Source: Thermoanaerobacter wiegelii Rt8.B1 (lineage in GTDB: Bacteria > Bacillota > Thermoanaerobacteria > Thermoanaerobacterales > Thermoanaerobacteraceae). Taken from it: a DNA stretch of 64,000 bases. Under the pieces are notes generated by a model that worked only from the letters and a program-made list of their open reading frames with translations, was not told the DNA's origin and ran no database searches. Location: assembly GCF_000147695.2 (NCBI RefSeq), contig NC_015958.1:288501-352500 (forward strand), in the 5' to 3' direction. The position numbers and the translations under genes are program-made. Below, in pieces: positions 972 to 25,904 of this stretch (its first letter is position 1; each line of letters begins with the position of its first letter).

Positions 972-1011
972 GATAGTGTAAAATTATCGTAGGATTTTTA
1001 AAGTGAAAAAA

Positions 1012-1078
1012 ACAAGAGACAACCCCTGTGATAAAATAGAAATAGGAAACAAAACATCACAGAAAGGGGTGTCTCTTG
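1012..1078 (+). promoter_or_regulatory. Hairpin masking the ISLre2 transposase ribosome binding site
   Basis: An inverted repeat pairs ACAAGAGACA..CCCC..TGTGAT (about 1012-1032) with ATCACA..GGGG..TGTCTCTTG (about 1056-1078). The 3' arm contains the AAGGGG ribosome binding site and the first base of the GTG start. Transcripts entering from outside the element would fold this and hide the start, as known for IS10 and IS50. The identical structure is in copy 2. Confidence 0.5.
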
Positions 1079-2481
1079 TGAAAAAATATATTTTTGAAGA
1101 TATTATACTACAAAATGCTCTAAATTTCACTAGAGAAGTGATAGAAATTTTTGGTGATTTATTAAACGAAGGAATGGATATTACAAGACTTGTAGCAAGA
1201 ATAAAGGAAATCACGGACAAACTAGGTAGTGAAGTAATAGAAGCAATTATTGAAGAGTTAGATAGGATAATAAAAGAAGACAAGAGAAGGAAAGAAAAAT
1301 GGATAGTAGAAAGAAAAGATAAAAAGAGGTTAACGACAATTCTTGGAGATATTGAATATGAGATGACATATTACAAATCTAGGCAGGATGGGAGATATAC
1401 ATATTTGGTGGATGATGCATTAGAGATAGGGCGGCACGATAGGATAGAAAAGGGAGTAAAGATAAAGTTAGTAGAAAACGCGATAGAAGAATCATATGAA
1501 AGAAGTAGTAAAAAAGCATGTCCAGAGGAGCTAAGTAAACAGACGGTATTAAACGCAATAAGGGAAATAGGAGAAGTAGAAGTAAAGAGAGAAATAAAAG
1601 AGAAGAAAGAAGTAAAGGTATTATACATAGAGGCAGATGAAGACCATGTACCTTTACAAGAGGGTGGAGATGAAACACCTCGATTGGTGTACATACATGA
1701 AGGGAGGGAAGAGAGAAACGGAAGAAACGTACTGAAAAATGTGTATTACAAGGCATACGTAGGAGAGAAAGCTGAAGACATATGGATAGATGTAGCAAAT
1801 TACATAGAAGAAAATTACAAGGAAGAGAAGATAGAGAAGATATACATAGCAGGAGATGGAGCGCCGTGGATAAAAGAGGGATTAGAGTGGATAGTAAAAT
1901 CAAGGTTTGTGTTAGACAGATATCATTTAAACAAATACGTATTAAAAGCTACATCGAAAGAGCCAAAATACAGGGATAAGATATGGAGAGCAATAAATGA
2001 AGGAGATAAAGAAGAACTAAAGAAGGTATTTAATGAACTAATAAAGGTAACAAAGGAAGAGAGAGAAAAAGAGAAGGTAAAAGAGGCCAAGAGGTACATA
2101 CTAAATAATTGGGAAGGAGTAGAGATATACAGTAAAGACAAAGATGTAATAGGGTGCAGTGCAGAAGGGCATATAAGTCATGTATTTTCTTCTAGATTAA
2201 GTAGGAATCCATTAGGATGGAGTAGAGAAGGATTAAAGTTAATGGCGAAATTAAGAGTATTCAGCAAGAATGGAGGAGATTTGAGAGAAATAGAATGGGG
2301 TAAGAAAGAGAATATAAATGAAGGGAGCTACAAATTAACGAAGAAGCAAATAAAAGAGGCGGTAAGGAGAGTTAAAACGTCTACAAATGAAAAAATAAAT
2401 AATATTACGGTTTTGAATATAGGGAAAGTAACACCAATATATAAGGTTTTAAGAGCAATAAAATATGCGCAAGTTATATAA
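1078..2481 (+). CDS. ISLre2 family transposase (UPF0236-like)
   Basis: A 467-aa protein from the GTG at 1078, which has an AAGGGGTG ribosome binding site; the frame stays open further upstream but only within the terminal region of the element. Motifs visible are [24 protein letters not shown] followed by [14 protein letters not shown], and [22 protein letters not shown]. These fit a DDE-type transposase of the ISLre2 family, which is related to the Mutator/IS256 fold. It differs from copy 2 at only two residues that I can see (EYEMTYY versus EYERTYY, and KEVKVLY versus KEVRVLY). Long antisense open frames over it are coding shadows. Confidence 0.9.
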
Positions 2482-2578: not shown

Positions 2579-2607
2579 TTGACAATTTTAAAGGAAAAGT
2601 ATATTAT
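2579..2607 (+). promoter_or_regulatory. Sigma-A promoter of the alpha-glucan operon
   Basis: TTGACA (2579-2584), a 17-bp spacer and TATTAT (2602-2607). The predicted start point falls just before the operator-like site at 2617. The ISLre2 copy ends 16 bp upstream, so the insertion narrowly spared this promoter. Confidence 0.65.
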
Positions 2608-2616
2608 AATAGTAGA

Positions 2617-2632
2617 ATGCATTCGGTTGCAT
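2617..2632 (+). promoter_or_regulatory. LacI-family operator-like site 1
   Basis: ATGCATTCGGTTGCAT is an inverted repeat (ATGCA/TGCAT arms) with a central CG, the signature of LacI/GalR-family operators such as MalR sites. It sits just downstream of the predicted transcription start, a position suited to repression. Its near twin lies at 2703-2718. No LacI-type regulator is encoded in this window. Confidence 0.6.
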
Positions 2633-2702: not shown

Positions 2703-2718
2703 ATGCATTCGATTGCAT
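2703..2718 (+). promoter_or_regulatory. LacI-family operator-like site 2
   Basis: ATGCATTCGATTGCAT, one base different from the site at 2617-2632, in the leader 30 bp before the start codon. The centre-to-centre distance is 86 bp, which would allow looping by a tetrameric or dimer-pair repressor. Confidence 0.6.
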
Positions 2719-2747: not shown

Positions 2748-3716
2748 ATGTCTGAAATAAGATATGACATCATAACTGGTAAAATGGTGATTATAGCTAC
2801 GGAGAGGGGAAAGAGACCTCATGATTTTAAAATAGTTCATAGTGAAAAGAAAAACAACGTTTGTCCTTTTTGCCCAGGAAATGAAGAGATGACTCCTCCT
2901 ACTTTAGTTGAAATTAAGGATAAAAAAGGGAAGTGGTTAGTTAGAGGATTTGAAAATAAATTTGCAACAGTGAACACAGATTTAAAGAGTTTTGAGGTAC
3001 CATCCCTTTATAAAGCGGAATATGGTTATGGTGTAGCAGAGGTAATAGTAGAATCACCAGACCATAATGCAACTTTTGGGAGATTAACTTTAGAACAAAT
3101 GCAAAAAGTTTTTATAGCGATTATTGAGCGATACAAAAGAATTTCTCAAGACGATAAAATAAAATACATTCAAGTGTTTAAAAATTTTGGAGCAAGAGGA
3201 GGAGCTTCCTTAGAACACGGGCATTGGCAGATTATAGCTACTTCTTTTATTCCAGATGTAGTAGAAAAAGAGGTAACAGGTATACAAGAATATATTAAGA
3301 AGAAGGGCAAATGTCCTTATTGTGAAATTGTCAAATGTGAAAAAGAAGAAGGTAAAAGGATAATAGGTGAAAATGAGAATTTCATTGTTATCGCTCCTTA
3401 TGCATCTCAATATCCTTATGAGTCATGGATAATACCCAAAGAGCATCAAGAGCGATTTGAAGAGTTAAAAGAAGAAAATATTGCAAATTTGACCGAAATT
3501 TTGAAGCCTCTTATAGAAAAGTACGAGAGAGAATTTAACTTTCCGCCATATAATATTGTGGTTCATACAGTACCAATTTCTGATATAAGAAATTATCATT
3601 GGCATATTGAAATTATTCCAAGGCTTACTGTGGCAGCTGGTTTCGAGTTAGGGACAGGAGTTTATATAAATCCTGTGCCACCAGAATTGGCAGCATCAGT
3701 TTTAAGAATAGAATGA
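2748..3716 (+). CDS. galT: GalT-like HIT-superfamily nucleotidyltransferase (hexose-1-P uridylyltransferase or ADP-glucose phosphorylase)
   Basis: A 322-aa protein with the GalT fold: N-terminal zinc motif CPFCPGNEEMTPP (about residues 39-51), nucleotidyl-transfer motif FKNFGARGGASLEHGHWQ (about 144-161, the HGHWQ being HxHxQ), a second CxxC (KCPYC) and a C-terminal HWHIEIIPRL. It moves a nucleotidyl group between sugar 1-phosphates through a histidine intermediate. From memory, the layout, including IQVFKN-GA-GAS and the ending GFELGTG-YINPV, is closer to plant-type ADP-glucose:phosphate adenylyltransferase than to E. coli GalT. There is no galK or galE here; the neighbours are a maltokinase and a glycogen synthase-like enzyme. 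A role on ADP-glucose or UDP-glucose in alpha-glucan turnover is therefore as likely as the Leloir pathway. Confidence 0.8.
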   Translation: MSEIRYDIITGKMVIIATERGKRPHDFKIVHSEKKNNVCPFCPGNEEMTPPTLVEIKDKKGKWLVRGFENKFATVNTDLKSFEVPSLYKAEYGYGVAEVIVESPDHNATFGRLTLEQMQKVFIAIIERYKRISQDDKIKYIQVFKNFGARGGASLEHGHWQIIATSFIPDVVEKEVTGIQEYIKKKGKCPYCEIVKCEKEEGKRIIGENENFIVIAPYASQYPYESWIIPKEHQERFEELKEENIANLTEILKPLIEKYEREFNFPPYNIVVHTVPISDIRNYHWHIEIIPRLTVAAGFELGTGVYINPVPPELAASVLRIE

Positions 3717-3740
3717 AATTCTATTGAAAGAAGTGGTCAA

Positions 3741-5318
3741 ATGTATATTGGTAAAACCTTCAACTTTGAAGATATACCTACAAAACTGAAAGATATAATT
3801 AAAAATATAGATAAAGACAATTTTAAAAAGTTTAGATGGTTTCAGGAGAAGGCTTATAATATTTTAGATATATTTTTATTTGATTATGCAATATTGTCTA
3901 AAAAGGAAGCTGAGATTATAATTGCAGCTATTATAGCTTTTGTGGTGAAAGCTCCAACGAGTAAGAAAGAGATTACTTTGCTTTATTATGTGCCTTTAAT
4001 TATAACTCCTTATTTTAGGAATAATGATTTAATAGATATTATTGAGAGTCCAAATTTAAAAGCTTTTATATACGATGGAATTGACGATATAAATTATGTT
4101 AAGTTTTTAAATAAAGCGTTAAGTGAAGAAACAGTTATAAAATTTGAGTCTGGTGCCCAATTAATTCCTTATAATCTTAAAAAAGACGATATATACAGTT
4201 CACGAAGGCTGAGCAATAAGTCCAGTAATAGTTTAACATTTTTACAAAAAGATGAAATAATAAAGACTTATAGAAAATTTGTAAAAGGAGTTAATCCTGA
4301 CCTTGAAATGACTTTTGAACTTAAAAATGCAGGTTTTGGAAATGTTCAGGATATAAGAGGTTATTTTTTATATGAAGACAGTAGCGGAGATAGGTATACT
4401 GTTGCTATAATAGTGGAACACATTAAAAACATGGGAGACATGTGGCAATATACGCAAGAGTATCTGTCTTCTGTAATTTCTACTTTATCCGATTATGAGG
4501 AAATTGAAGAAAGTTACGTAGAAGGATACTTGAGCAATTACTTTGAAGAGGTAAGAGAGATAGCAAGGATAATTGCCGATATGCATATTAAATTGTCTTA
4601 TATTGATAAAGAAGATTTTGCGAAAAGAAATGTTGAAATATCAGATGTTGAAGAAGTGTTGAAGAGCATAAAAAATAATTTCGCTAAACTTTTAAATTTT
4701 ATAAAATTGTCTACTTTTGATGAACAAATAACTTCAATGATAGAAGAGATTGTAAGGCAACAAGAGTTTTTAATGAGCAAATTAGAAGAATTTAAAGATA
4801 CTGCTGTTTTTGGCAAATATATAAGATGTCATGGAGACCTACACTTAGAGCAAATTTTAAAGACTGAAGAGGGATATGTGATAATAGATTTTGAAGGGGA
4901 ACCGACAAAACCTATTGAGGTGAGGAGAAAAAAAATATCTCCCTTAAAAGATGTGGCAGGCATGGTACGTTCTTTTAGTTATGCTGCTTATGCTGCTTAT
5001 TTTAATTATCTTAATGCAAAAGGTAAGTTGCAGGATGAAAAAATAGAAAAAGTGCTGTCAGTGTGGGAAGAAGCTGTCACGGAGACTTTTGTAGAAAACT
5101 ATTTGGAATTGGTGACAAGGGAAGCACCAGACATTATACCAGAAGGTGAAAATTTCGATAAGGCTTTAGCTATTTTTAAATTAGATAAAGCTCTTTTTGA
5201 AGGAATTTATGAGGTAAATAATAGACCTTCTTGGTTTAAAATACCTTTAAAAGGTATTTTAGGGTGTATTGAGGATTTGAAATTAGAAAAACACGGATCG
5301 GAGGTAAACTATGGATAA
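3741..5318 (+). CDS. Maltokinase-like sugar kinase (Mak/Pep2 family)
   Basis: A 525-aa protein whose C-terminal half has the aminoglycoside-phosphotransferase-like kinase core: catalytic loop CHGDLHLEQIL (about residues 363-373) and metal-binding IIDFEGEPTKPIEVRRKKIS followed by SPLKDVAGMVRSFSYAAYAA (about 379-415). This pattern is characteristic of maltokinases, which make maltose 1-phosphate from maltose and ATP, and of the C-terminal domain of trehalose synthase fusions. The N-terminal part is weakly conserved, as in known Mak. It overlaps the next gene by 8 nt, so the two are translationally coupled. No glgE gene is in the window. Confidence 0.8.
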   Translation: MYIGKTFNFEDIPTKLKDIIKNIDKDNFKKFRWFQEKAYNILDIFLFDYAILSKKEAEIIIAAIIAFVVKAPTSKKEITLLYYVPLIITPYFRNNDLIDIIESPNLKAFIYDGIDDINYVKFLNKALSEETVIKFESGAQLIPYNLKKDDIYSSRRLSNKSSNSLTFLQKDEIIKTYRKFVKGVNPDLEMTFELKNAGFGNVQDIRGYFLYEDSSGDRYTVAIIVEHIKNMGDMWQYTQEYLSSVISTLSDYEEIEESYVEGYLSNYFEEVREIARIIADMHIKLSYIDKEDFAKRNVEISDVEEVLKSIKNNFAKLLNFIKLSTFDEQITSMIEEIVRQQEFLMSKLEEFKDTAVFGKYIRCHGDLHLEQILKTEEGYVIIDFEGEPTKPIEVRRKKISPLKDVAGMVRSFSYAAYAAYFNYLNAKGKLQDEKIEKVLSVWEEAVTETFVENYLELVTREAPDIIPEGENFDKALAIFKLDKALFEGIYEVNNRPSWFKIPLKGILGCIEDLKLEKHGSEVNYG

Positions 5319-6477
5319 GTTAAAAGTTACAATGTTTACAAATGAATACCCTCCTAATATTTACGGTGGAGCTGGTGTTCATGTAGATTATCTTGTTAGG
5401 GAACTGTCTAAACTGATGGAAGTAGATGTGAGATGCTTTGGTGACCAAGATTATACGGCTGATAATCTAAAAGTCCGTGGATATAAACAGTGGGATAAGT
5501 TAAAGGAAAATTCAGATCCAAGATATCAGAAAGTTTTGGGGCCTTTTTCCATTGATTTGGCAATGGTGAAGGATGAGATAGACTCAGATATTTTACACTG
5601 CCATACCTGGTATACTTTTATGGCGGGCTTTTTAGCTAAAAAATTGTATGATAAACCTCTTGTGGTTACAATTCACAGCCTTGAGCCTTTAAGGCCATGG
5701 AAAGAAGAACAGTTAGGCAATGGATATAAGCTAAGTTCTTGGATGGAAAGAACAGGAATTGAAGCCGCCGATAGGGTTATAGCAGTTTCCAAGGGGTCGA
5801 AAGAAGATATATTGAAGTATTACAATATTCCAGAAGAAAAAGTTGAAGTTATATATAACGGCATAGATTTGAACCAATACCAGAAAACAGATAGAAATAT
5901 TGCTCGCAAAAAATATGGAATTGAGGGTAAATACATTCTCTTTGTAGGAAGAATATCAAGGCAAAAGGGCATTACTCATTTAATAGATGCAGTAAAGTAT
6001 CTACCTAAGGATATAAAGGTTGTATTATGCGCTAGTTCTCCAGATACCCAAGAGGTTTTAGAAGAAGTAGAGCAAAAAGTTAAACTTTACGACAATATTA
6101 TTTGGATAAATAAAATGGTGGAAAAAGAAGAAATTATAGAGTTATACAGCAATGCGGAAGTTTTTGCATGCCCTTCTGTTTATGAGCCTTTTGGCATAAT
6201 AAACTTAGAAGCAATGGCTTGTAAAACTCCTGTTGTGGCAAGTGCTACAGGAGGAATTAAAGAGGTTGTAGTTCATGAAGAGACAGGATTCCTTGTAGAA
6301 CCAGGCAATCCTGAAGAATTAGCAAAATATATAAACATACTTTTAAATAACAAAGATTTAGCTATAAAATTTGGAGAAAATGGGAGAAAACGTGTTGAAG
6401 AGATGTTTAGTTGGGAAAGCATTGCTAAAAAGACTTATGAGATGTACAAGGATGTAATAGAGAAATATAAAAAATAA
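5311..6477 (+). CDS. GT4 glycosyltransferase, GlgA/GlgM type (glycogen synthase, actinobacterial form)
   Basis: A 388-aa GT-B enzyme. The N-terminal EYPPNIYGGAGVHVDYLVREL is the sugar-nucleotide synthase start seen in actinobacterial-type glycogen synthases, and the GT4 donor-site motif EPFGIINLEAMACKTPVVAS lies at about residue 292. In mycobacteria this family (GlgM) joins ADP-glucose to glucose 1-phosphate to give maltose 1-phosphate; other members elongate glycogen. Its coupling to a maltokinase-like gene supports a maltose 1-phosphate context. The start ATG has a GGAGG site inside the end of the upstream gene. Confidence 0.8.
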   Translation: MDKLKVTMFTNEYPPNIYGGAGVHVDYLVRELSKLMEVDVRCFGDQDYTADNLKVRGYKQWDKLKENSDPRYQKVLGPFSIDLAMVKDEIDSDILHCHTWYTFMAGFLAKKLYDKPLVVTIHSLEPLRPWKEEQLGNGYKLSSWMERTGIEAADRVIAVSKGSKEDILKYYNIPEEKVEVIYNGIDLNQYQKTDRNIARKKYGIEGKYILFVGRISRQKGITHLIDAVKYLPKDIKVVLCASSPDTQEVLEEVEQKVKLYDNIIWINKMVEKEEIIELYSNAEVFACPSVYEPFGIINLEAMACKTPVVASATGGIKEVVVHEETGFLVEPGNPEELAKYINILLNNKDLAIKFGENGRKRVEEMFSWESIAKKTYEMYKDVIEKYKK

Positions 6478-6487
6478 ATGCGCTAAG

Positions 6488-6520
6488 GCAGGGGTGACAA
6501 TTGCCCTGCTTTGTTTATTT
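6488..6520 (+). terminator. Rho-independent terminator of the alpha-glucan operon
   Basis: GCAGGG (6488-6493) pairs with CCCTGC (6504-6509) and is followed by TTTGTTTATTT. It lies 10 bp after the glycosyltransferase stop codon. Confidence 0.6.
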
Positions 6521-6530
6521 GTGCTATAAT
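6501..6530 (+). promoter_or_regulatory. Possible promoter of the DedA gene
   Basis: TTGCCC (6501-6506), an 18-bp spacer and TATAAT (6525-6530). It overlaps the 3' arm of the preceding terminator, a compact arrangement that would let the DedA gene start its own transcript. Confidence 0.45.
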
Positions 6531-6558
6531 AAATTTAAAAATAATGGATGGTGTGGCG

Positions 6559-7179
6559 ATGGAAGGACAATCTTTTCTTTATAATGCAATAATAAATTAT
6601 GGATATATAGCGCTTTTTATAGGGCTTATGATTGAAGGAACGGGAATGCCAGGCCCTGTAGAAATATTATTTTTTGCGGCAGCGTATTTAGTCACAAAAG
6701 GGGATATGAACCTTTTTTATGTTATAGTCATCGCTGCTTTAGGAAATGTGACAGGAAATGTGATAGCTTATTTGGTAGGCTATTATAAAGGTAGGCCTGT
6801 TGTTGAAAAATACGGTAAATATTTAAAAATAACAGTAAAAGACCTTGAAGCTATGGATAAATGGTTTGCTAAATATGGAGGATTTACGGTTTTATTAGGT
6901 AGGCTTGTAGGTCTTCCAAGGACGCCGGCTATTTGGGCTTCAGGTATAACCCGTATGAATTTTACTGTGTATGTGATATTTTCTGCTATTGCTGATTTTA
7001 TATGGTCTACTTTTTGGGCAGTAGTGTCTTATCTTGCTGCTATGCAATTGATTAAAATAGACTTTTTTGCGAAAAGTCAACCGCCTTGGGTATATTTTGC
7101 TTCTACAATAGGCTTTATGATATTTTTATATATAGTTTGGAGGGTACTTCTTTGGATGAAAGAAAAGTATCTAACGTAA
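6559..7179 (+). CDS. DedA-family membrane protein
   Basis: A 206-aa protein from the ATG at 6559; two in-frame starts lie further upstream (ATG 6544 is the nearest). The DedA/SNARE-associated signature is clear: FIGLMIEGTGMPGPVEILFFAAAYL near the N-terminus, then GNVTGNVIAYLVGYYKGR, then the conserved LLGRLVGLPRTPAIWASGITRM, with about five hydrophobic segments. DedA proteins are inner-membrane proteins linked to undecaprenyl-phosphate or phospholipid flipping and proton-motive-force maintenance. The gene overlaps the next one by 28 nt, which suggests coupled translation. Confidence 0.88.
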   Translation: MEGQSFLYNAIINYGYIALFIGLMIEGTGMPGPVEILFFAAAYLVTKGDMNLFYVIVIAALGNVTGNVIAYLVGYYKGRPVVEKYGKYLKITVKDLEAMDKWFAKYGGFTVLLGRLVGLPRTPAIWASGITRMNFTVYVIFSAIADFIWSTFWAVVSYLAAMQLIKIDFFAKSQPPWVYFASTIGFMIFLYIVWRVLLWMKEKYLT

Positions 7180-8261
7180 TTTTTGAGAAGATAACAAATG
7201 TTTCTGAACTTTTAGATATAGAGGATATATGGCATGAGTTAGAGAATGTGGCGGAAATTTATCCTTTTAATACTTTTGAATGGGTGTTAAACTGGTGGAA
7301 ACATTTTGGATATGGTAAAAAAATGTTGGTATTACTGGTTTATGAAGAAAATATGCCCATTGGAATTGCGCCTTTTATGATAACATATTTTGAAAAAGGA
7401 CTTTTGGTTAAAAGGATAAAATTTATAGGTTCTAACAATAGTGATTATCTTGATTTTATCGTGAGAAAAGGACATGAAAATGAATTTTATACAAGCTTAG
7501 TAAATTTTTTGGAAAGATATATAGATGCTTTTACTGTTTTAGATTTGGAACATATTCCTGAAAAGAGTGAGTTTTTCCCCTATATAATGGGTAGTAACCT
7601 TTATTACGATTATGATGTGCAAGATGTATGTCCTTATGTGGAATTACCTCAAAGCTGGGAAGAATATTTAAATAGTTTAGATGGAAAATTTAGACGAAAT
7701 CTCAATTATGAAATCAGAAGATTTTTTAAGGAATATGACGGAAGTTTTTCAATGGTGAAGGATATAGAATCGATAGATAGAGCAATGGATAATTTAATAG
7801 TTCTTCATCAAAGGCGATGGAGACAAAGGCACATGCCTGGAGCTTTTTATTCTAAGAGGATAAGGGAGTTCCACAAGGATGTGGCAAAAGACATGTTATC
7901 AAAAGGAGAATTGAGTCTTTTTGAATTAAAAGACGGGGGAAAAACAGTTGCTAGTCTTTTAAGTTATCATGTAGGGGGTAAAAGGTATTATTATATAAGC
8001 GGTTATGACTTGGATTATAGCAAAAGAAGTGTTGGCACTATAACTTTAGGTCTTGCTATAAAGCAGTCTATTGAAGAAGGAGATAGAATATTTGACTTTT
8101 TAAGAGGAGATGAAGAGTACAAAAAAAACTGGACTTCTTCAAAAAAGCGAAATATGCGATTTGTGGCGGCAAGGCCCACAATGGCAGGCAAATTTTTCTG
8201 CTACTACATAATTGCGGAAAACAAAATTATCAAAAAAATTAAAGACAGGTTTAGTGGATAG
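7152..8261 (+). CDS. GNAT/FemAB-like acetyltransferase (BioF2-like domain)
   Basis: A 369-aa protein from a TTG start at 7152 preceded by GGAGGG (7139-7144) at a 7-nt spacing; longer in-frame extensions would sit wholly inside the DedA gene. The central part (SWEEYLNSLDGKFRRNLNYEIRRF) and the C-terminal part (YYYISGYDLDYSKRSVGTITLGLAI, then FDFLRGDEEYKKNW) match the Acetyltransf_6 domain found in cellulose/polysaccharide biosynthesis proteins such as BcsL/CelD-like enzymes. The substrate is unknown. Overlap with dedA suggests an envelope role. Confidence 0.8.
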   Translation: MDERKVSNVIFEKITNVSELLDIEDIWHELENVAEIYPFNTFEWVLNWWKHFGYGKKMLVLLVYEENMPIGIAPFMITYFEKGLLVKRIKFIGSNNSDYLDFIVRKGHENEFYTSLVNFLERYIDAFTVLDLEHIPEKSEFFPYIMGSNLYYDYDVQDVCPYVELPQSWEEYLNSLDGKFRRNLNYEIRRFFKEYDGSFSMVKDIESIDRAMDNLIVLHQRRWRQRHMPGAFYSKRIREFHKDVAKDMLSKGELSLFELKDGGKTVASLLSYHVGGKRYYYISGYDLDYSKRSVGTITLGLAIKQSIEEGDRIFDFLRGDEEYKKNWTSSKKRNMRFVAARPTMAGKFFCYYIIAENKIIKKIKDRFSG

Positions 8262-17810: not shown

Positions 17811-18818
17811 ATGAAAACGTTAAATGAGAAATTTTTTAAGTTAATGGACAAGGTCATTTTAATTTTGGTCATTTTGATAGCAGCATTGAGCATTTTTTTA
17901 TATAAGCTTCAAAAGGTAGAAGAACCTATTTTTGCAAAAACGCCGCAATATCACTTTTACATGGTAGCCCAAAATTCTGTAGACCCTTTTTGGAAAGAGG
18001 TAAAAATGGGTGCTATGGATGCTGCAAAACGTTACAATGTCGCAATTGAATTTAATGCCCCCAAATTTAATAACATCCAAGAGGAACTTCAGTATTTGGA
18101 TATTGCTATACTGTCTAAAGTTGATGGCATAATAACTCATGTTTCCAACAGTAAAGAGTTTGTAGATTTGATTGAAGAAGCCTATAAAGAAGGAATACCC
18201 GTAATTACAATGGAAAATGACGCAAAAGACAGCAAAAGACAGGCCTTTATAGGTACAAACAGTTTTCAATTAGGAGAAGAAGCCGGAAAGCTTATGATTA
18301 AGGCTACCAAAGGAAAAGCTAACATTGCTATAATCGTTAGCAATGATTACCAATTGGATTCTGTAAACCAAAATTTAAAAATCAATGGTTTTTTAGATGC
18401 CATAAAAGATTATCCTCAAATGAAAGTTGTAAAGGTTTATACTTCCAAGTTAGGTACTTTAAGTGCAGAAGAGATTACTCAGTCAATTATAAGCAGTAAA
18501 CAAAACATAAGTGCTATTTACACTACAGATTCTGTAGATACCATTGGTACTGCACAAGTAATAGTTGATTTTAACAAAGTGGGAGACATAGCGATTGTAG
18601 GTTATGGAGATACTGCGGATATTTTGAGGTATATAGACAAAGGAATAATATACGGCACAGTTATGAGTGACCCTTACAGAGTAGGATATGAAAGTGTAAA
18701 ATCCATGGTGGAAATTAAAGAAAAAAATAATGTCTCTACATTTGTTGATATAGGAGTAAATGTTATTACTAAGGACAATGTCAAAGAATATTTCAAAAGA
18801 ATACAATCAATGGAGTAA
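17811..18818 (+). CDS. Membrane-anchored sugar-binding sensor protein (XylFII-like)
   Basis: A 335-aa periplasmic-binding-protein fold (Peripla_BP_4/LacI-like) behind an uncleaved N-terminal membrane helix (residues about 12-29, VILILVILIAALSIFLYKL). The ligand domain starts HFYMVAQNSVDPFWKEVKMGAMDAA. It lies directly before a LytS/YesM-type sensor kinase and a YesN-type regulator. This order matches the XylFII-LytS-YesN system of clostridia, in which a membrane-held binding protein detects xylose and signals through the kinase. It is therefore inferred to be a sensory, not a transport, binding protein. The ribosome binding site (GGGAGG) lies about 14 nt from the ATG, unusually far. Confidence 0.8.
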   Translation: MKTLNEKFFKLMDKVILILVILIAALSIFLYKLQKVEEPIFAKTPQYHFYMVAQNSVDPFWKEVKMGAMDAAKRYNVAIEFNAPKFNNIQEELQYLDIAILSKVDGIITHVSNSKEFVDLIEEAYKEGIPVITMENDAKDSKRQAFIGTNSFQLGEEAGKLMIKATKGKANIAIIVSNDYQLDSVNQNLKINGFLDAIKDYPQMKVVKVYTSKLGTLSAEEITQSIISSKQNISAIYTTDSVDTIGTAQVIVDFNKVGDIAIVGYGDTADILRYIDKGIIYGTVMSDPYRVGYESVKSMVEIKEKNNVSTFVDIGVNVITKDNVKEYFKRIQSME

Positions 18819-18827
18819 GGTGATGGC

Positions 18828-20336
18828 ATGAAAAAAGATATGTGGAGATTTACAGGCATAAGGCGAAAATTGATAGTTTATTATCTCCTAATCACTGTTT
18901 TGATGGGTATCACAAGTTTTTATTCATATTATAATGCAAAATCAGTTATAAATCGTTTAAAATCAGTTTTTGTGGATTATATATACCTTAACAATTTAAA
19001 TACCGATGTAAACACGCTGGAAACAGAAGTGGAGAAGTATTTATCTACCAAATCCTCAGACGCTCTTTTAAATTATTATACCCTCAATAACAAACTTCAA
19101 GAACAAGCTTCAGTTATTTTAAATGAAAAAAACTATGACCAGGATGGTTTAATGTTAAAGGATATAGGGAATATGATTGAAAGCCTTTTGAATGAAACTG
19201 ACGCAGCAATAAATGCTAAAAGAGGCAGGATAAGCAGCGAGTACATTGCACATTTTACGAGGTCCAATAAAATAAGTGAATATATAAAACTTTACATTAA
19301 TAATCTTCTCAACAGTAAATTGCAAGAGGGCTCTTTAAAATATGCATCTATAACAAAAAACATGGAGTTTATAAGCTATTTGAATGTGTTTTTGATAATA
19401 GGTTCTATTCTTTTTAACATATTTCTTGCAATATTTTTTACCTATCGAATTACAAAACCTCTTATAGACCTTTCCCATTTGGCAGTGAGAGTTTCAAAAG
19501 GAGATTTTGATGTAAGACCGCTTTCTATAAAGACAAACGATGAGATAAATATACTTGCAGAAGCTTTTAATAAAATGGTAGTAAGCATAAAAAATTATAT
19601 AGGGGAAATCAAAAATCAGGCAGAAGTAGAGAAAAAATTAAAAGAACAAGAGATGCAAAATCTCAAAATGAGAAATATTTTAAAAGAGGCAGAACTTAAG
19701 GCTTTGCAGTCTCAAATAAATCCACATTTTCTCTTTAATACCTTAAATGCAGCTGCACAATTAGCGATGATGGAAGGGGCAGATAAATCTTCGGAGTTTA
19801 TAGAAAACGTTGCAAACCTATTTAGATATAATCTAAAAAAATTGGATACTACAGTTACTTTGCAAGACGAGATAAACAATGTAAAGACATATATGTACAT
19901 TTTGAAAACGAGATTTGGCGACAGAGTAGATTTTAAAGTAGATGTAGACGAAGGGGTTTTAGATATAGAAATGCCTTGTACAATAATTCAGCCTGTAGTT
20001 GAAAATGCTTTTATTCACGGATTAGAAGATACAGAAAAAGGAGGTTTTATTAAACTTACGGTAAAGAAGGATAATGATAAAGTTTTAATAGAGGTTATTG
20101 ACAATGGGATAGGAATGAGTGAAGAAAAAGTAAGGGCAATATTATCAGCAGACAATGAGGATTTATCTAAAAGGCATGTTACGGGTATTGGCATGCACAA
20201 TATCATAAACAGACTAAGACTTTTTTATAACACTTCTGCTATAGAAGATGTAATTGAGATAGATAGCAAAATAGGAGAAGGAACAAAAGTTACTTTAAAA
20301 ATTCCTTTAATGAAGGGTGATAAAGAAAATGATTAA
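18828..20336 (+). CDS. LytS/YesM-type sensor histidine kinase
   Basis: A 502-aa membrane kinase. An N-terminal helix (about residues 14-34) and a second at about 185-208 (FLIIGSILFNIFLAIFFTYRI) flank an extracytoplasmic helical sensor region. Then follow HAMP (ITKPLIDLSHLAVRVSKGDFDV), a coiled coil, the His_kinase domain with phospho-acceptor QINPHFLFNTLNA (about residue 303) and a HATPase_c domain (VENAFIHG, IEVIDNGIGMSEEK, GIGMHNIINRL). It is expected to autophosphorylate when the neighbouring binding protein contacts its outer domain with sugar bound. It overlaps the response-regulator gene by 8 nt. Confidence 0.9.
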   Translation: MKKDMWRFTGIRRKLIVYYLLITVLMGITSFYSYYNAKSVINRLKSVFVDYIYLNNLNTDVNTLETEVEKYLSTKSSDALLNYYTLNNKLQEQASVILNEKNYDQDGLMLKDIGNMIESLLNETDAAINAKRGRISSEYIAHFTRSNKISEYIKLYINNLLNSKLQEGSLKYASITKNMEFISYLNVFLIIGSILFNIFLAIFFTYRITKPLIDLSHLAVRVSKGDFDVRPLSIKTNDEINILAEAFNKMVVSIKNYIGEIKNQAEVEKKLKEQEMQNLKMRNILKEAELKALQSQINPHFLFNTLNAAAQLAMMEGADKSSEFIENVANLFRYNLKKLDTTVTLQDEINNVKTYMYILKTRFGDRVDFKVDVDEGVLDIEMPCTIIQPVVENAFIHGLEDTEKGGFIKLTVKKDNDKVLIEVIDNGIGMSEEKVRAILSADNEDLSKRHVTGIGMHNIINRLRLFYNTSAIEDVIEIDSKIGEGTKVTLKIPLMKGDKEND

Positions 20337-21942
20337 ATTGTTTATTGCGGACGATGAGCAAATAGTTATAGATTCAATTAAATTTATCATAGAAAAGAAT
20401 GATGTAAAAGCTGATATAATTGGTTTTGCTAAATCTGGAAGAGAAGCCATTGAAAAAGTGGAAATTTTAAAACCTGATGTAGTTTTTATGGATATAAAGA
20501 TGCCAGGAATAGATGGAATTGAAGCCATAAAGCAAATTAAAGAAAGGCATAAGGACATAATTTTTGTTATTATTACCGCTTACGAGTATTTTAATTATGC
20601 AAAAGAGGCAATAGACCTTGGAGTGTTAGATTATCTTTTAAAGCCTCTTAATAGAAATAAAGTCGTAGAAACTATAAAAAAAGCTTCAGAAGTAATTGAA
20701 AAAAGAAGAGAGGCAATGTTAAAAGAGTTAGAGCTAAAGGAGAAACTCAATAAGATTATTCCTTATTTGGAAGGGCAATTTTTGTATACTATTCTTTTTA
20801 GTGGTATAACCTATGAGGACGTGTCCTTTTATGAAGATATATTTGGAATTAAATTGAAACGTGGTTATGCTATGATAGTAACAGTGGAGGATGTTGATAA
20901 CAATTTCAAAGGTCAAAATCTAAAATTAAGCATAGAGAAACAGAATTTTTATGATTATTTTAAAACAATTGTAAAAAATATTAAAAAATGTTTAGTAGGT
21001 TTATCCTTTATTGACAAAGTATTTGTATACTTTCCTGTTGAGGAGGAAAATTCCTTTGAGATTAAAAATAATTCTATAGAAACAGCGCAAAGGTTAAGAG
21101 AAGCTATGAACCAAAAAGTGAAAATTCCTTACAGGATTGGAATAGGTAGAGTTTACAATTTCGAAAATATTTTGAAATCTTATTATGAAGCAGAAATGGC
21201 ATTAAAAATGGCAAAAAATGAAATGATTGCACATTTTGATGATATCGCAATGCCACAAGATAGATTTAAGCCTTATCCTATTAATAAAGAAAGACTTTTT
21301 ATTGATAGACTTATGACTGGAGACCTTCAAGGATCTTTCAGTATATTTAATGAAATTTATGAATGGATGGTTTTGGAATACCAAGAGGATGTAGACAAAA
21401 TAAAGTCCAAACTTATAGAAATAATCGGTGTTATTAAAAGGAATCTTTCCTATTATGCTGAGGAAGAAAATTTTATTGAAAACAGAGAACTAGAAGAAAT
21501 TTTAAAAATAAACGATGTTGACAAAATAAAGTTTATATTTATCAATACTCTGAAAAATCTATTTGACAGCATAAAAACCATCAACAAAGAAAAAATGGAT
21601 ACCCTTTTAGCCAAAATAATTAGATTTATGGAGGACAATTTTAATAAAGATATTACACTGGATGACGTTGCAAAAGAAGTTAATATGAGTTACCACTATT
21701 TCAGCAAATTTTTCAAGGATCAAACTGGGAAAAATTTTATTGATTACTTGACAAATTTGAGAGTAACTAAAGCCAAAGAACTTTTAGAGGATGAGAGTGT
21801 AAGCATAAAAGAAGTGTGTTACAAGGTTGGCTACAGCGACCCAAATTATTTTAGCAAGATATTCAAAAAAGCCACGGGGATGACACCTACAGAATATAGG
21901 TTAGCTATTTACAAAGGAAGGGGTGTGGTTGGTGGAGAGTAA
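20329..21942 (+). CDS. YesN-type response regulator (REC + AraC HTH)
   Basis: A 537-aa protein starting at the ATG at 20329 (AAGGGTG site; an in-frame GTG at 20317 is less likely). The receiver domain (about residues 1-120) shows LFIADDEQ, phospho-acceptor VVFMDIKMPGIDGIEA and the conserved lysine in YLLKPLNR. A long linker follows, then two AraC HTHs (DDVAKEVNMSYHYFSKFFKDQTG and KEVCYKVGYSDPNYFSKIFKKATG). It probably activates the downstream binding protein and xylFGH genes. Its last 11 nt overlap the next gene. Confidence 0.9.
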   Translation: MIKLFIADDEQIVIDSIKFIIEKNDVKADIIGFAKSGREAIEKVEILKPDVVFMDIKMPGIDGIEAIKQIKERHKDIIFVIITAYEYFNYAKEAIDLGVLDYLLKPLNRNKVVETIKKASEVIEKRREAMLKELELKEKLNKIIPYLEGQFLYTILFSGITYEDVSFYEDIFGIKLKRGYAMIVTVEDVDNNFKGQNLKLSIEKQNFYDYFKTIVKNIKKCLVGLSFIDKVFVYFPVEEENSFEIKNNSIETAQRLREAMNQKVKIPYRIGIGRVYNFENILKSYYEAEMALKMAKNEMIAHFDDIAMPQDRFKPYPINKERLFIDRLMTGDLQGSFSIFNEIYEWMVLEYQEDVDKIKSKLIEIIGVIKRNLSYYAEEENFIENRELEEILKINDVDKIKFIFINTLKNLFDSIKTINKEKMDTLLAKIIRFMEDNFNKDITLDDVAKEVNMSYHYFSKFFKDQTGKNFIDYLTNLRVTKAKELLEDESVSIKEVCYKVGYSDPNYFSKIFKKATGMTPTEYRLAIYKGRGVVGGE

Positions 21943-23014
21943 AAATGTAATCAAAGTGATAGTGGCAATTGTCCTTATGATTATTTTTGGTGTTTTAGTT
22001 TTTTTGACTGTTAAGCATGTAATAGCATATAGAGAAATAAAAAATATAAGCTCTAACGCATTAAACAGCAAAGAGCACAAAATTAAAATTGGTTTTTCTC
22101 TTGGTACCTTAAAAGAAGAAAGATGGATTAAAGACAGAGATATAGTAATGGCAAAATTACGGGAATTAGGAGCAGAAGTTTTAGTACAAAATGCTAACAA
22201 CGATGACCAAGACCAATTAAAACAGGTGAGATATCTTTTGGACCAAAAAATCGACGTACTTATCATTGTTCCAAATGACCTTGAAAAAGCGTCTTATGCG
22301 GTATCATTGGCACAAAAAGAAGGGGTAAAAGTGATATCCTATGACAGACTTGTTACAAAATCAAATGTAGACCTTTATATATCCTTTGACAACGTAAAAG
22401 TTGGAAAACTCATGGCGGAATATCTAGTGAAAAGAGTACCGAGAGGAAATTATTTAATAATAAATGGTGCTACGACGGATAATAACACAAAAATGATAAA
22501 GGAAGGGTATGACAGTGTCCTAAAACCCAGGATTGAAAGTGGAAATATAAAAATTGTAAAAGAAGATTGGGCACCTAATTGGATGACGGAATACGCTTTT
22601 AATTCTACTGATGAATTGTTGCAAAAGGGTGTAAAAATTGATGCCGTAATAGCAGGGGATGATGCTTTAGCGGGAGGAATTATAGAGGCTTTATCAGAGC
22701 ACAGATTGGCGGGGAAAGTATTGGTTGCAGCTCAGGATGCTGACCTTGCTGCATGTCAAAGGATAGTGGAAGGAACTCAGGCTATGACAGTGTACAAACC
22801 AATTGATAAATTGGCTGAAGCCACCGCAAAAATGGCTATGAAACTTGCAAAGGGAGAAAAATTAAACGTGAAAAATACCATATATGACGGGAAATATTAC
22901 GTTCCTTATTATGTTCTTGAACCAATTGCTGTTGATAAAACCAACATAGACGATACCGTAATAAAAGATGGTTTTCATACCCGCGATGAGGTATACAGAA
23001 ATGTCTCTAAATGA
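21932..23014 (+). CDS. Second membrane-anchored sugar-binding protein (xylose-type, Peripla_BP_4)
   Basis: A 360-aa protein from GTG 21932 (AGGAAGGGG site; TTG 21929 or GTG 21923 are possible). An N-terminal hydrophobic anchor (VIKVIVAIVLMIIFGVLVFL) without a lipobox cysteine precedes a xylose-type binding domain: IKIGFSLGTLKEERWIKDRDIV, then VKVISYDRLV, ISFDNVKVGKLMAEYLV, ILDAVIAGDDALAGGI-like and AAQDADLAACQRIVEGTQAMTVYKPI. Residue pattern is close to XylF/ChvE. As an uncleaved protein after the regulator it may be a second sensor or an auxiliary binding protein; whether this or the protein at 17811 is the true XylFII cannot be settled here. Confidence 0.8.
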   Translation: MESKNVIKVIVAIVLMIIFGVLVFLTVKHVIAYREIKNISSNALNSKEHKIKIGFSLGTLKEERWIKDRDIVMAKLRELGAEVLVQNANNDDQDQLKQVRYLLDQKIDVLIIVPNDLEKASYAVSLAQKEGVKVISYDRLVTKSNVDLYISFDNVKVGKLMAEYLVKRVPRGNYLIINGATTDNNTKMIKEGYDSVLKPRIESGNIKIVKEDWAPNWMTEYAFNSTDELLQKGVKIDAVIAGDDALAGGIIEALSEHRLAGKVLVAAQDADLAACQRIVEGTQAMTVYKPIDKLAEATAKMAMKLAKGEKLNVKNTIYDGKYYVPYYVLEPIAVDKTNIDDTVIKDGFHTRDEVYRNVSK

Positions 23015-23019
23015 TTATT

Positions 23020-23044
23020 CAGGCTTTAAGCCTGTATTTTTTTG
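23020..23044 (+). terminator. Terminator between the sensor operon and xylF
   Basis: CAGGCT-TTA-AGCCTG followed by TATTTTTTTGT. It would separate, fully or in part, the sensory operon from the highly expressed transporter operon. Confidence 0.6.
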
Positions 23045-23188
23045 TCTTAAAAAAATACAGATTGATAAGTTAAAAAATTTAAATCGCCAAAAAAGTAAAG
23101 GATATCAAAAAAAGTTCCAGAGGCATTTTGAGGGGGGAAGTAGAATTAATTATTAAAATAAAATTTTAGAAAGGAGAGGTAATGTACA

Positions 23189-24349
23189 ATGAGTAACAAG
23201 CGCAGACTTGTAGTGGTAGTAATAGCAGTCCTGTTGTTAGTATCTGCTTTTCTAGGTGGTTGTTCTTCTTCCTCAAAACAAACTTCTAATTCGTCTTCTA
23301 ATTCATCTTCTTCAAACCAGGCTTCTAATAACAAAATAGCTGTTGGTATTGTATTACCAACAAAAGATGAGCCAAGATGGATTCAAGACGAGACTCGCTT
23401 TCAGGATGCATTAAAAAATACCCCTTATTCTGCTGAAGTTCTTTTCAGCCAAGGCGATCCTGCTAAGGAGAAAGCCAATGTAGAAACTTTGATAAGTAAA
23501 GGTATAAAGGTACTTATCCTATGTCCTCAAGATGCAAATGCAGCAGCCGCTTCTGCAGAGGAGGCTAAAAAAGCAGGTGTAAAGGTTATATCTTATGATA
23601 GGTTAATACTTAATACAGATGCAGTAGATTATTATGTCACTTTTGATAGTGTACAGGTAGGTAAAGAACAAGGTCAGTATTTAGTTGATCATGCAACAGG
23701 TAAAGGCAATCCTCTATATCTCTATGCTGGTGCTTTATCTGATAATAACTCTTTCTTATTCTTCCAAGGAGCATGGGAAGTTTTACAGCCAAAGATCGCT
23801 GATGGTACTTTTGTAATTGCAAATTCTGACAAAGCAGTTGCATTAAAAGATAAAAAAGACTTAACTCGTGATGAAATGGCAAGTATTATAGGACAAATTA
23901 CTACAAATTGGGATTTCAATACTGCTAAAAACCTTGCTCAGGCAAACCTTGCTAAGGCGCCAAAAAATTTAAAGGGTAATGTATTTATACTTGCTCCTAA
24001 TGACGGTACCGCAAGGTCAATAGCAGATACTTTTAAAGCAGATCCGGACATTAAAAGTTATGTAATTACTGGACAAGATGCTGAAAAACCATCTATTCAA
24101 TACATTATTGATGGCAAACAATCCATGACTGTCTTCAAAGATGTTAGGATTCTTGTTAAGGATGCAATAAATGCTGCTTTGACATATTTAGACGGAAAAA
24201 CACCAGAAGCTACGAAAACTTATAATAATGGTGTAAAAGATGTTCCTTCTAAACCATCTCCTGTACAAGTAGTGGATAAGAATAATGTAAAACAAGTTCT
24301 AATAGATTCTGGATATTACCAAGAAAGCGATTTTACTTGGCCTAAATAA
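23189..24349 (+). CDS. xylF: Xylose ABC transporter, substrate-binding lipoprotein
   Basis: A 386-aa lipoprotein. The signal peptide (about residues 1-25) ends in the lipobox LGGC, followed by a serine/asparagine-rich linker (about 26-47). The binding domain shows IAVGIVLPTKDEPRWIQDETRF, VKVISYDRLI, VTFDSVQVGKEQGQYLV, and near the C-terminus ITGQDAEKPSIQYIIDGKQSMTVFKDV, matching XylF/ChvE-type sugar-binding proteins. It delivers xylose (possibly other monosaccharides) to XylGH. A xylFGH operon of this form has been described in Thermoanaerobacter ethanolicus. Confidence 0.92.
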   Translation: MSNKRRLVVVVIAVLLLVSAFLGGCSSSSKQTSNSSSNSSSSNQASNNKIAVGIVLPTKDEPRWIQDETRFQDALKNTPYSAEVLFSQGDPAKEKANVETLISKGIKVLILCPQDANAAAASAEEAKKAGVKVISYDRLILNTDAVDYYVTFDSVQVGKEQGQYLVDHATGKGNPLYLYAGALSDNNSFLFFQGAWEVLQPKIADGTFVIANSDKAVALKDKKDLTRDEMASIIGQITTNWDFNTAKNLAQANLAKAPKNLKGNVFILAPNDGTARSIADTFKADPDIKSYVITGQDAEKPSIQYIIDGKQSMTVFKDVRILVKDAINAALTYLDGKTPEATKTYNNGVKDVPSKPSPVQVVDKNNVKQVLIDSGYYQESDFTWPK

Positions 24350-24366
24350 TGTTGGAGGTGTGAAGA

Positions 24367-25890
24367 ATGGGTACCCCGCTTATAGAGCTTGTAAACGTAA
24401 GTAAAAGTTTTTCAGGTGTACAAGTATTATTTGGTGTAAATTTTAAAGTTCAACCAAGGGAGATACATTGTTTAGTTGGAGAAAATGGAGCCGGCAAAAG
24501 TACTTTAATGAAAATCTTAAGCGGGGTATACCCTTATGGTGAATACGAAGGAGAGATAAGACTTGAGGGATACCCTGTAAGATTTTTTAGCATAAAAGAC
24601 AGTGAAAAAGCCGGAATTTCCATTATCCATCAAGAACTTTCTTTAGTTCCAGAGATGACAGTATATGAGAATATCTTTTTGGGAAATGAAATTAAAAAGG
24701 GAAGTATAGTAGATACTTTTGAGGAAATAGAAAGAGCACGACAACTTTTATTAAAAGTCAAAGGTGAAAATATTAATCCTACTGCAAAGGTTAAAGACCT
24801 TAGCGTGAGTATGCAGCAGCTTGTTGAAATAGCAAAAGCACTTTCAAAAAATCCCAAAGTGCTAATTCTGGATGAGCCAACTTCTGCTTTAAGTGAAACT
24901 GAAAGTGAAAATCTCCTTATTCTTTTAAAAGAACTTAAAGAACAAGGAGTTACAATTATTCTTATAAGTCATAGATTAAAAGAAGTTTTGAAAGTGGCGG
25001 ATTCTATAACTGTTTTACGAGATGGGCAAACAGTAGCCTATTTTAATTGCAAAACTGAAGAAATAGATGAAAAAAAGATAATAAAACATATGGTTGGAAG
25101 AGAGATTACAAATCTTTATCCAATGCCTATAGCCAAACCTCTAGATGAACCTATAATGGAAACTAAAAATTGGAATGTAATTGAACCCAGTACAGGCCGC
25201 TATTTAGTAAAAGATGCAAACATTGTATTAAAAAAAGGAGAAATAGTAGGGTTATTTGGATTAGTTGGTGCTGGACGTACAGAATTTGGACTTAGCCTTT
25301 TTGGGAACCCATATGGCTACATTATTTCTGGAGATATAATATTAAAGGGCAGAAAAGTAAAGTTCAAGACTCCGGAAGATGCAATTAAGCAGGGAGTGCT
25401 TTATTTAACGGAGGATCGAAAAGAAAAAGGGCTGATTTTGATAAACAGCATAAAGGAAAATATAAGTTTGGCGAATTTAAAAGCTTTGAAGAAAGGAATT
25501 ACAGTTGATGAAGCCAAAGAGATAGAAATAGCCCAAGGCTTTCAGAAAAGACTTAATATAAAAGCTCGTAATGTTGAAGTTAATGTTTCTACTTTGAGCG
25601 GAGGGACTCAGCAAAAAGTTTTGGTAGCTAAAGGCCTTTTTGCTGAACCAGATGTCATTATTTTGGATGAACCTACAAGAGGTATAGATGTTGGCGCAAA
25701 ATATGAAATATACACATTAATAAGAGAATTAGCAAGTGAAGGCAAAGCCATTCTCCTTATATCCTCTGAATTACCGGAAATATTGGGAATGAGTGATAGA
25801 ATATATATAATGAGCAAAGGTAAAATTACAGGGGAATTGAAATCAGAAGAAGCCAATCAAGAAATCGTAATGGCTTATGCCGTGAGCTAA
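24367..25890 (+). CDS. xylG: Xylose ABC transporter, ATPase with two nucleotide-binding domains
   Basis: A 507-aa tandem ABC ATPase of the monosaccharide (CUT2) class. The first domain has Walker A GENGAGKST, signature LSVSMQQLVEIAKAL and Walker B VLILDEPTSAL. The second has the usual degenerate Walker A (GLVGAGRTE) but intact signature LSGGTQQKVLVAKGL and Walker B VIILDEPTRGIDVG. It powers uptake through the permease encoded 14 nt downstream. Confidence 0.95.
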   Translation: MGTPLIELVNVSKSFSGVQVLFGVNFKVQPREIHCLVGENGAGKSTLMKILSGVYPYGEYEGEIRLEGYPVRFFSIKDSEKAGISIIHQELSLVPEMTVYENIFLGNEIKKGSIVDTFEEIERARQLLLKVKGENINPTAKVKDLSVSMQQLVEIAKALSKNPKVLILDEPTSALSETESENLLILLKELKEQGVTIILISHRLKEVLKVADSITVLRDGQTVAYFNCKTEEIDEKKIIKHMVGREITNLYPMPIAKPLDEPIMETKNWNVIEPSTGRYLVKDANIVLKKGEIVGLFGLVGAGRTEFGLSLFGNPYGYIISGDIILKGRKVKFKTPEDAIKQGVLYLTEDRKEKGLILINSIKENISLANLKALKKGITVDEAKEIEIAQGFQKRLNIKARNVEVNVSTLSGGTQQKVLVAKGLFAEPDVIILDEPTRGIDVGAKYEIYTLIRELASEGKAILLISSELPEILGMSDRIYIMSKGKITGELKSEEANQEIVMAYAVS

Positions 25891-25904
25891 AGGAGGGTTT
25901 AAGA

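Follow-up and report, generated by a model that had tools for sequence, protein, structure and literature searches.

A three-gene operon of Thermoanaerobacter wiegelii that may split maltose into glucose 1-phosphate by way of maltose 1-phosphate

In mycobacteria, according to PMC11046441, GlgE receives alpha-maltose 1-phosphate (M1P) from two parallel sources, a maltokinase-type kinase and GlgM; M1P counts as a building block of glucans, and GlgM as tied to GlgC. High toxicity is reported for M1P (PMC4306142). The Arabidopsis protein At5g18200 acts as an ADP-glucose phosphorylase and not as a GalT (PMC6329318, PMC11066809), and the enzyme's role in plants is stated as unknown in PMC11066809. 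Relatives of the kinase, of GlgM and of the plant enzyme are encoded side by side in Thermoanaerobacter wiegelii Rt8.B1, at positions 2748-6477 of a 64,000-nucleotide stretch of contig NC_015958.1 (positions 288,501 to 352,500), here called the window. We propose, with a probability of roughly 55%, that this operon is a kinase-primed, degradative pathway that splits maltose and yields glucose 1-phosphate (G1P).

A reading made from the DNA letters without database searches, here called the sequence-only reading, had described three coupled genes at this place. Their open reading frames were confirmed, and their boundaries match a unit that runs from a promoter to a hairpin:

2579..2607, plus strand: promoter TTGACA-17-TATTAT, 11/12 consensus matches; the exact string is kept in relatives.
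2617..2632, no strand assigned: operator O1, ATGCATTCGGTTGCAT, a 16-nt even palindrome with a central CG, just past the -10 box.
2703..2718, no strand assigned: operator O2, ATGCATTCGATTGCAT, a second copy 86 bp downstream of O1.
2748..3716, plus strand: gene 1, ADP-glucose phosphorylase-like (GalT fold), 322 aa; open reading frame list, family and tree comparison.
3741..5318, plus strand: gene 2, maltokinase-like kinase, 525 aa; family matches and motif alignment.
5311..6477, plus strand: gene 3, GlgM-type GT4 M1P synthase, 388 aa; family matches and alignment.
About 6484..6513, plus strand: hairpin followed by a T-rich stretch, the probable terminator of the three-gene unit.

Genes 1 and 2 are separated by 24 bp, and genes 2 and 3 by -8 bp, the start of gene 3 lying inside the end of the kinase gene. 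The exact TTGACA-N17-TATTAT string is present upstream of the operon in 18/18 related loci examined. The promoter and the hairpin bracket these genes, so the transcription unit consists of the three. The gene order is conserved in 19/20 genomes of the window's family (f1), being spread across two contigs in one of them (G030), which shows that the arrangement is not due to chance.

In brief, the kinase would convert maltose and ATP to M1P and ADP (step 1). GlgM, running in reverse, would transfer the non-reducing glucose of M1P onto ADP, giving ADP-glucose and G1P (step 2), and the ADP-glucose phosphorylase would then use inorganic phosphate (Pi) to convert ADP-glucose to ADP and G1P (step 3). 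The ADP from step 3 would re-enter step 2 and thus act as a catalytic shuttle, so that steps 2 and 3 together would be a phosphorolysis of M1P. The net reaction would be maltose + ATP + Pi -> 2 G1P + ADP. Its ATP cost would equal that of maltose phosphorylase plus glucokinase and be one ATP below that of hydrolysis and two glucokinase steps. Extracellular amylopullulanase, maltodextrin uptake and alpha-glucan phosphorylase could all supply the maltose. The sequence-only reading had suggested that an alpha-glucan is made or degraded through M1P and that ADP-glucose is recovered by phosphorolysis. We favor degradation, of maltose, and ADP-glucose would be a transient intermediate that is consumed and not recovered.

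On textbook free energies, phosphorolysis of ADP-glucose releases roughly 10 kJ/mol. The sum of steps 2 and 3, M1P + Pi -> 2 G1P, would be near zero under standard conditions and would be pulled by a high cellular Pi:G1P ratio and by phosphoglucomutase. Starting from 1 mM of each substrate, the GlgM reaction stops at about 1:8 (PMC4981310), which we converted to an equilibrium constant of about 64, or about -11 kJ/mol. For one maltokinase, PMC4306142 reports that M1P and ADP gave no reverse reaction. Since GlgM is reversible and that maltokinase was not seen to run backward, it is the kinase that pushes and GlgM that can yield: the kinase would load the system, and GlgM would run back once gene 1 removes ADP-glucose with phosphate.

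The proposal builds on the gene families, their order and conservation, the operators, and the absence of GlgE and GlgC from this genome. We sampled 37 genomes of the class, 20 of these from f1. The kinase is found in 20/37, all f1, and the GlgM homologue in the same 20. GlgE (PF11896) was found in none of the 37, including all 20 family genomes, and the C. glutamicum control was positive. GlgC exceeds its cut-off in 18/37 class genomes, yet in only 5/20 of f1; this search did not find it in the other 15 family genomes, the window's own genome among them. GT5 GlgA occurs in the same five family genomes as GlgC, and none was found in the own genome. The best residual candidates for a hidden GlgC there were below the cut-off and of mannose-1-phosphate guanylyltransferase types, the nearest lying by a beta-1,2-mannobiose phosphorylase gene, and they were rejected. 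The own genome has five PF00128 matches, in four GH13 genes, and none of them reaches the GlgB or TreS cut-off; GH57 was not searched. The remark in the sequence-only reading that no GlgE lies nearby therefore holds for the whole genome, and GlgC and a GH13 GlgB were likewise not found.

These absences bear directly on the direction of the pathway. As no GlgE was found in the 37 class genomes and no TreS or GlgB cut-off was reached in the own genome, there is no known consumer of M1P except GlgM. As GlgC is missing from 15/20 family genomes, including this one, there is no known source of ADP-glucose except reversed GlgM. A parallel supply of M1P as in mycobacteria consequently makes little sense here.

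A close relative of gene 1 is present in 19/20 f1 genomes, G016 being the exception, and four of the five GlgC-bearing family genomes retain it. A further 15 class genomes gave a match with gene 1; 14 of these fall in the GalT score range and one (G014) on the gene 1 side. Genes 1 and 3 are broken in G024, and the kinase gene has in-frame stops in G018 and G028; G024 and G028 are drafts, in which gene decay and assembly error are indistinguishable.

Across the phylum, the kinase was found in 38 of 398 sampled genomes. We inspected the neighborhoods in the 23 best-scoring of the 31 kinase-bearing genomes outside the family. GlgM lies directly downstream of the kinase in 22 of the 23, and the remaining one has an adjoining GlgB. 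Such adjacency is as expected of serial steps, and it marks the pair as a module of its own. The full triad was seen outside the family only in G233 (1/20 regions), and no common third partner was found among the neighbors of the non-family pairs. The combination, taken by the sequence-only reading to be unusual in a Firmicute, is thus not isolated: the pair is widely distributed across the phylum, and within the family the triad is the norm. That maltose phosphorolysis primed by ATP and catalyzed by ADP exists, with reversed GlgM as the step that splits the disaccharide and a definite place for ADP-glucose phosphorylase, and that the pair elsewhere may do likewise, has in our judgement about even odds. 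The operon's parts are known families; a full-text search, with subscription papers outside its scope, found no published description of a maltose loop in this combination or direction.

The gene 1 protein matches both the N and C domains of Pfam GalP_UDP_transf. Among solved structures the Arabidopsis enzyme 1z84 scores best (232 bits), ahead of an archaeal GalT (124) and E. coli GalT (105), and identity is 36% to 1z84 (328 columns) versus 28% to E. coli GalT. The nearest named relatives are from Thermoanaerobacter sp. A maximum-likelihood tree of 74 rows, from which seventeen redundant or fragmentary rows had been listed for exclusion beforehand and in which the plant row is a long branch, splits a GalT clade of 6 from the other 68 (support 100/98). 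This clade holds E. coli, one archaeal GalT and four class GalTs that adjoin galK and galE; these four are among the 14 from class genomes in the GalT score range. Gene 1 of the window and the Arabidopsis enzyme are both among the 68. Residues H157-G-H159 align with HSH of 1z84, H159 presumably being the nucleophile; PDB 2h39 has Gly at the second His of this His-x-His motif.

Gene context points the same way. GT5 GlgA adjoins relatives of gene 1 in three loci (L012, L014 and L063), and no galK or galE was found within two genes of the relatives in loci L012-L068, three skipped. The own genome has a separate galE-galK-galT2 at another place. The assignment of gene 1 to the ADP-glucose phosphorylase kind is supported, and ADP-glucose phosphorolysis is its predicted reaction. 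The tree and the separate gal operon bear out the likeness to ADP-glucose phosphorylase that the sequence-only reading had noted in this GalT-fold protein, and on their strength gene 1 was rejected as the genome's GalT.

Relatives of gene 1 in Methanothrix-type archaea mostly adjoin GT4 genes and often have such a gene at both flanks (loci L033-L038, L042, L045, L047, L049, L051, L053, L055 and L068). Upstream of the gene 1 relative these loci encode a protein of roughly 600 aa, which is GT3-glycogen-synthase-like in L068. The archaeal GT4 neighborhood would be another setting for ADP-glucose phosphorylase.

Gene 3 passes NCBIfam TIGR02149 (glgA_Coryne) with 622.5 bits against a cut-off of 302.4, and among solved structures M. 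smegmatis GlgM, 6tvp, comes closest to it with 324 bits (next best 127). Eight ADP-glucose-binding residues of M. smegmatis GlgM are described in PMC7137382 (H, V, N, R, K, E, G and I); placed by motif, all are kept in gene 3. These matches support gene 3 as a GlgM-type M1P synthase, in line with its earlier description as an actinobacterial-type GT4 enzyme.

The best solved relatives of gene 2 are mycobacterial maltokinases (E 6e-33), with glucosamine kinase at 2e-7. The kinase motifs HGDLHL, DFEGEP and SPLKDVAGM, which the sequence-only reading had listed for its maltokinase-like kinase, are intact (HGD at 364-366, DFE at 383-385). Of the maltose-site residues K413/Y416/Y420, which were probed by mutation in M. 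vanbaalenii Mak (PMC4306142), the Lys and the second Tyr are kept as K483 and Y490, and Y416 is replaced by F486. Glucosamine kinases of the SjGlcNK type carry the signature Q-x2-RE-x2-YA-x3-LP-x-W (PMC6520443). At this site gene 2 reads K-x2-FE-x2-YE-x3-RP-x-W, with the K483/Y490/RPSW maltokinase pattern kept; the signature is not present in the alignment, and a glucosamine kinase was rejected. Gene 2 is a maltokinase-like kinase, as opposed to a proven maltokinase, and maltose is its likely substrate.

Operator O1 is found in 19/19 family genomes with the triad, i.e. in the window and 18 related loci, of which 17 are exact and 1 has one mismatch to RTGCANNCGNNTGCAY. It is kept behind the -10 box although the flanking sequence differs between genera. 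O2 is found in 10/10 genomes of genus g1, with a weaker copy (two mismatches) in 3/9 of g3, and the spacing between O1 and O2 is 53 bp in a Caldanaerobacter-like genome. Allowing up to two mismatches, the O1/O2 pattern gave 2 matches against 0.25 expected, and 3/100 shuffles reached two. LacI-family regulators typically bind even palindromes of 16-22 nt with a central CG, and nearly 90% of them are local regulators of sugar utilization (both PMC4052901). O1 and O2 fit this description, being even palindromes with a central CG in a promoter region. A sugar regulator of the LacI family probably controls the operon, and CcpA, itself LacI-type, may be a candidate.

In the own genome and 17/18 relatives, the alpha-glucan phosphorylase gene has a related site, TGCANNCNNTTGCA, that overlaps its -35 region. 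The exception is G016, the sole family genome without gene 1; in G033 no alpha-glucan phosphorylase gene was found. Around non-family kinase genes (318 kb) the TGCANNCNNTTGCA pattern has 0 matches, around other relatives of gene 1 (726 kb) it has 2, and in gal regions (62 kb) it has 1. Its count in a single genome is not significant (3 found; mean 0.5 and largest 3 in 40 random runs), so the argument rests on site position and conservation. A further pattern, GMANNCGNTTGC, picked post hoc, has 7 matches in the own genome against 0.85 expected. In the own genome, sites of this type stand ahead of malEFG, of an alpha-amylase/malE operon and of amylopullulanase; GH65 and gal genes there showed none nearby. 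The related sites at the operon and at the gene for the degradative alpha-glucan phosphorylase support a catabolic role. These operators, which tie the operon to alpha-glucan use, and the Tyr-to-Phe change of the kinase go beyond the sequence-only reading.

Upstream of the operon, a 492-aa open reading frame (window 1003-2481) lies about 100 bp before the promoter, and promoter and operators are intact. A second copy lies on the opposite strand at 61174-62652, its sequence identical at the start; the two are probably transposase genes. Aligned related loci carry different sequence where the window has the first copy. Downstream, 6511-8261 holds a gene for a membrane protein of DedA/UptA-like type and one for a GNAT protein that looks FemAB-like by eye. 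Both are conserved neighbors of the operon almost throughout the family; they have their own promoter-like site and are probably outside the three-gene unit. A cluster of periplasmic binding proteins, a sensor kinase, a response regulator and a sugar ABC transporter was recognized by eye at 17811-27095.

Two other places in the own genome may be mentioned. At about 79.8-83.1 kb (L185, 281-3646), a beta-1,2-mannobiose phosphorylase gene adjoins a mannose-1-phosphate guanylyltransferase-like gene, and a possible glycosyltransferase gene lies beside the pair. At about 528-530 kb (L188, 3898-5603), the alpha-glucosidase gene that follows malE-malF-malG is split into two parts that lie in different frames. 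Unless this is a sequencing error, the strain's usual route of maltose hydrolysis may be interrupted.

Several points weigh against the proposed maltose-splitting pathway. Our main doubts are the substrate of the kinase and the enzyme activities; we infer all three substrates, the reaction direction and the regulator. Gene 2 scores 274.2 bits on NCBIfam TIGR02457 (TreS_Cterm, 'putative maltokinase'), below the cut-off of 375.05. Position 486 is Phe in all family rows readable there and Tyr in 20/20 non-family rows, and the maltose assignment is not secure because a Tyr-to-Phe change at the equivalent site of M. vanbaalenii Mak drastically cut activity (PMC4306142). Gene 1 passes the NCBIfam galT_1 cut-off (143.3 vs 102.1 bits), a model that fails to separate the GalT and phosphorylase clades, as gene 1 of L165 passes too. 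The operator pattern was picked post hoc, the related genomes are not independent, and the site at the alpha-glucan phosphorylase gene lacks the central CG. GH65 phosphorylases are present in 17/20 family genomes and may provide a second maltose route. Most non-family kinase-GlgM pairs are without a neighboring gene 1, so the pair must work without it there. In G016 (L102), the pair stands directly before glgB-glgC-glgD-glgA-glgP, which also fits glycogen synthesis, and no operator of the operon's kind was seen at that locus. ADP-glucose formed from M1P could go straight to glycogen in G016, and judging by this gene order the pair elsewhere may hand ADP-glucose straight to glycogen synthase.

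The G016 arrangement also speaks for an alternative that we hold to be unlikely, namely synthesis. Here the kinase and GlgM would both make M1P, which is their known role (PMC11046441), for an unrecognized enzyme that builds a glucan or glycoconjugate, and gene 1 would adjust ADP-glucose. Such a scheme sits poorly with the lack of GlgE in 37/37 class genomes and of GlgC in 15/20 family genomes. A branched glucan needs a branching enzyme, and a search of the own genome, which did not cover GH57, turned up no GH13 GlgB. Moreover, the operators link the operon to a degradative phosphorylase.

Less likely still is that gene 1 runs in reverse and replaces GlgC (ADP + G1P -> ADP-glucose + Pi), with GlgM, as a GT4 synthase of glycogen or maltodextrin, elongating an acceptor. 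The GT5 GlgA genes beside gene 1 relatives and the missing GlgC in 15/20 family genomes would suit this, but the reaction would have to climb the roughly 10 kJ/mol given above, and cellular Pi is presumably far above G1P. Together with any ADP-glucose transferase, the net would be the alpha-glucan phosphorylase reaction, which in cells goes toward G1P. Gene 1 is also kept in 4/5 of the family genomes that have GlgC, and mycobacterial GlgM barely uses glycogen (PMC4981310).

It is also doubtful, and to a slightly greater degree, that the kinase acts on another sugar, either in a loop for a different disaccharide or outside the loop. F486 and the score under the TIGR02457 cut-off leave room for this; the absent glucosamine-kinase signature, the kept K483/Y490/RPSW pattern and the adjacency to GlgM, whose product is M1P, in 22/23 non-family genomes and in the family argue for maltose. 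Finally, it is very improbable that gene 1 has no tie to genes 2 and 3 and serves galactose use as an ordinary GalT: it exceeds the curated galT_1 cut-off, but the tree places it with the Arabidopsis enzyme outside the clade of gal-operon GalTs, the own genome has its separate galE-galK-galT2, and no gal genes lie near the relatives of gene 1 in the loci examined.

If the maltose-splitting pathway holds, M1P enzymes, seen as tools of glucan synthesis, would also run a degradative route in a family of starch-fermenting thermophiles. The operon would suggest a function for ADP-glucose phosphorylase, and it would call for caution in annotating kinase and GlgM genes as glycogen synthesis.

The operon shares with the mycobacterial GlgE pathway (TreS-Mak/Pep2, GlgC-GlgM, GlgE and GlgB) the kinase and GlgM families and M1P as the central metabolite. 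This genome is without GlgE and GlgC, and no TreS or GH13 GlgB was found; here, the kinase and GlgM are adjacent and probably serial, a phosphorylase is added, and the whole is probably degradative. With the Arabidopsis ADP-glucose phosphorylase (At5g18200, 1z84), gene 1 shares the clade, the His-x-His site and the GFE-GTG-YINP end, but it is bacterial and stands in an operon with M1P enzymes. The GH65 maltose phosphorylase route resembles the proposed loop in net ATP cost and in phosphate-driven cleavage. The loop would differ in having three enzymes, kinase priming and an ADP shuttle, and in giving alpha-G1P only, with no beta-G1P and no free glucose. Finally, in the Leloir pathway (galK-galT-galE), too, a kinase and a GalT-fold enzyme of nucleotidyl transfer act around a sugar 1-phosphate, and the nucleotide carrier is used cyclically, whereas the proposed loop would use ADP instead of UMP/UDP-glucose, with a glycosyltransferase in the middle and maltose as the substrate.

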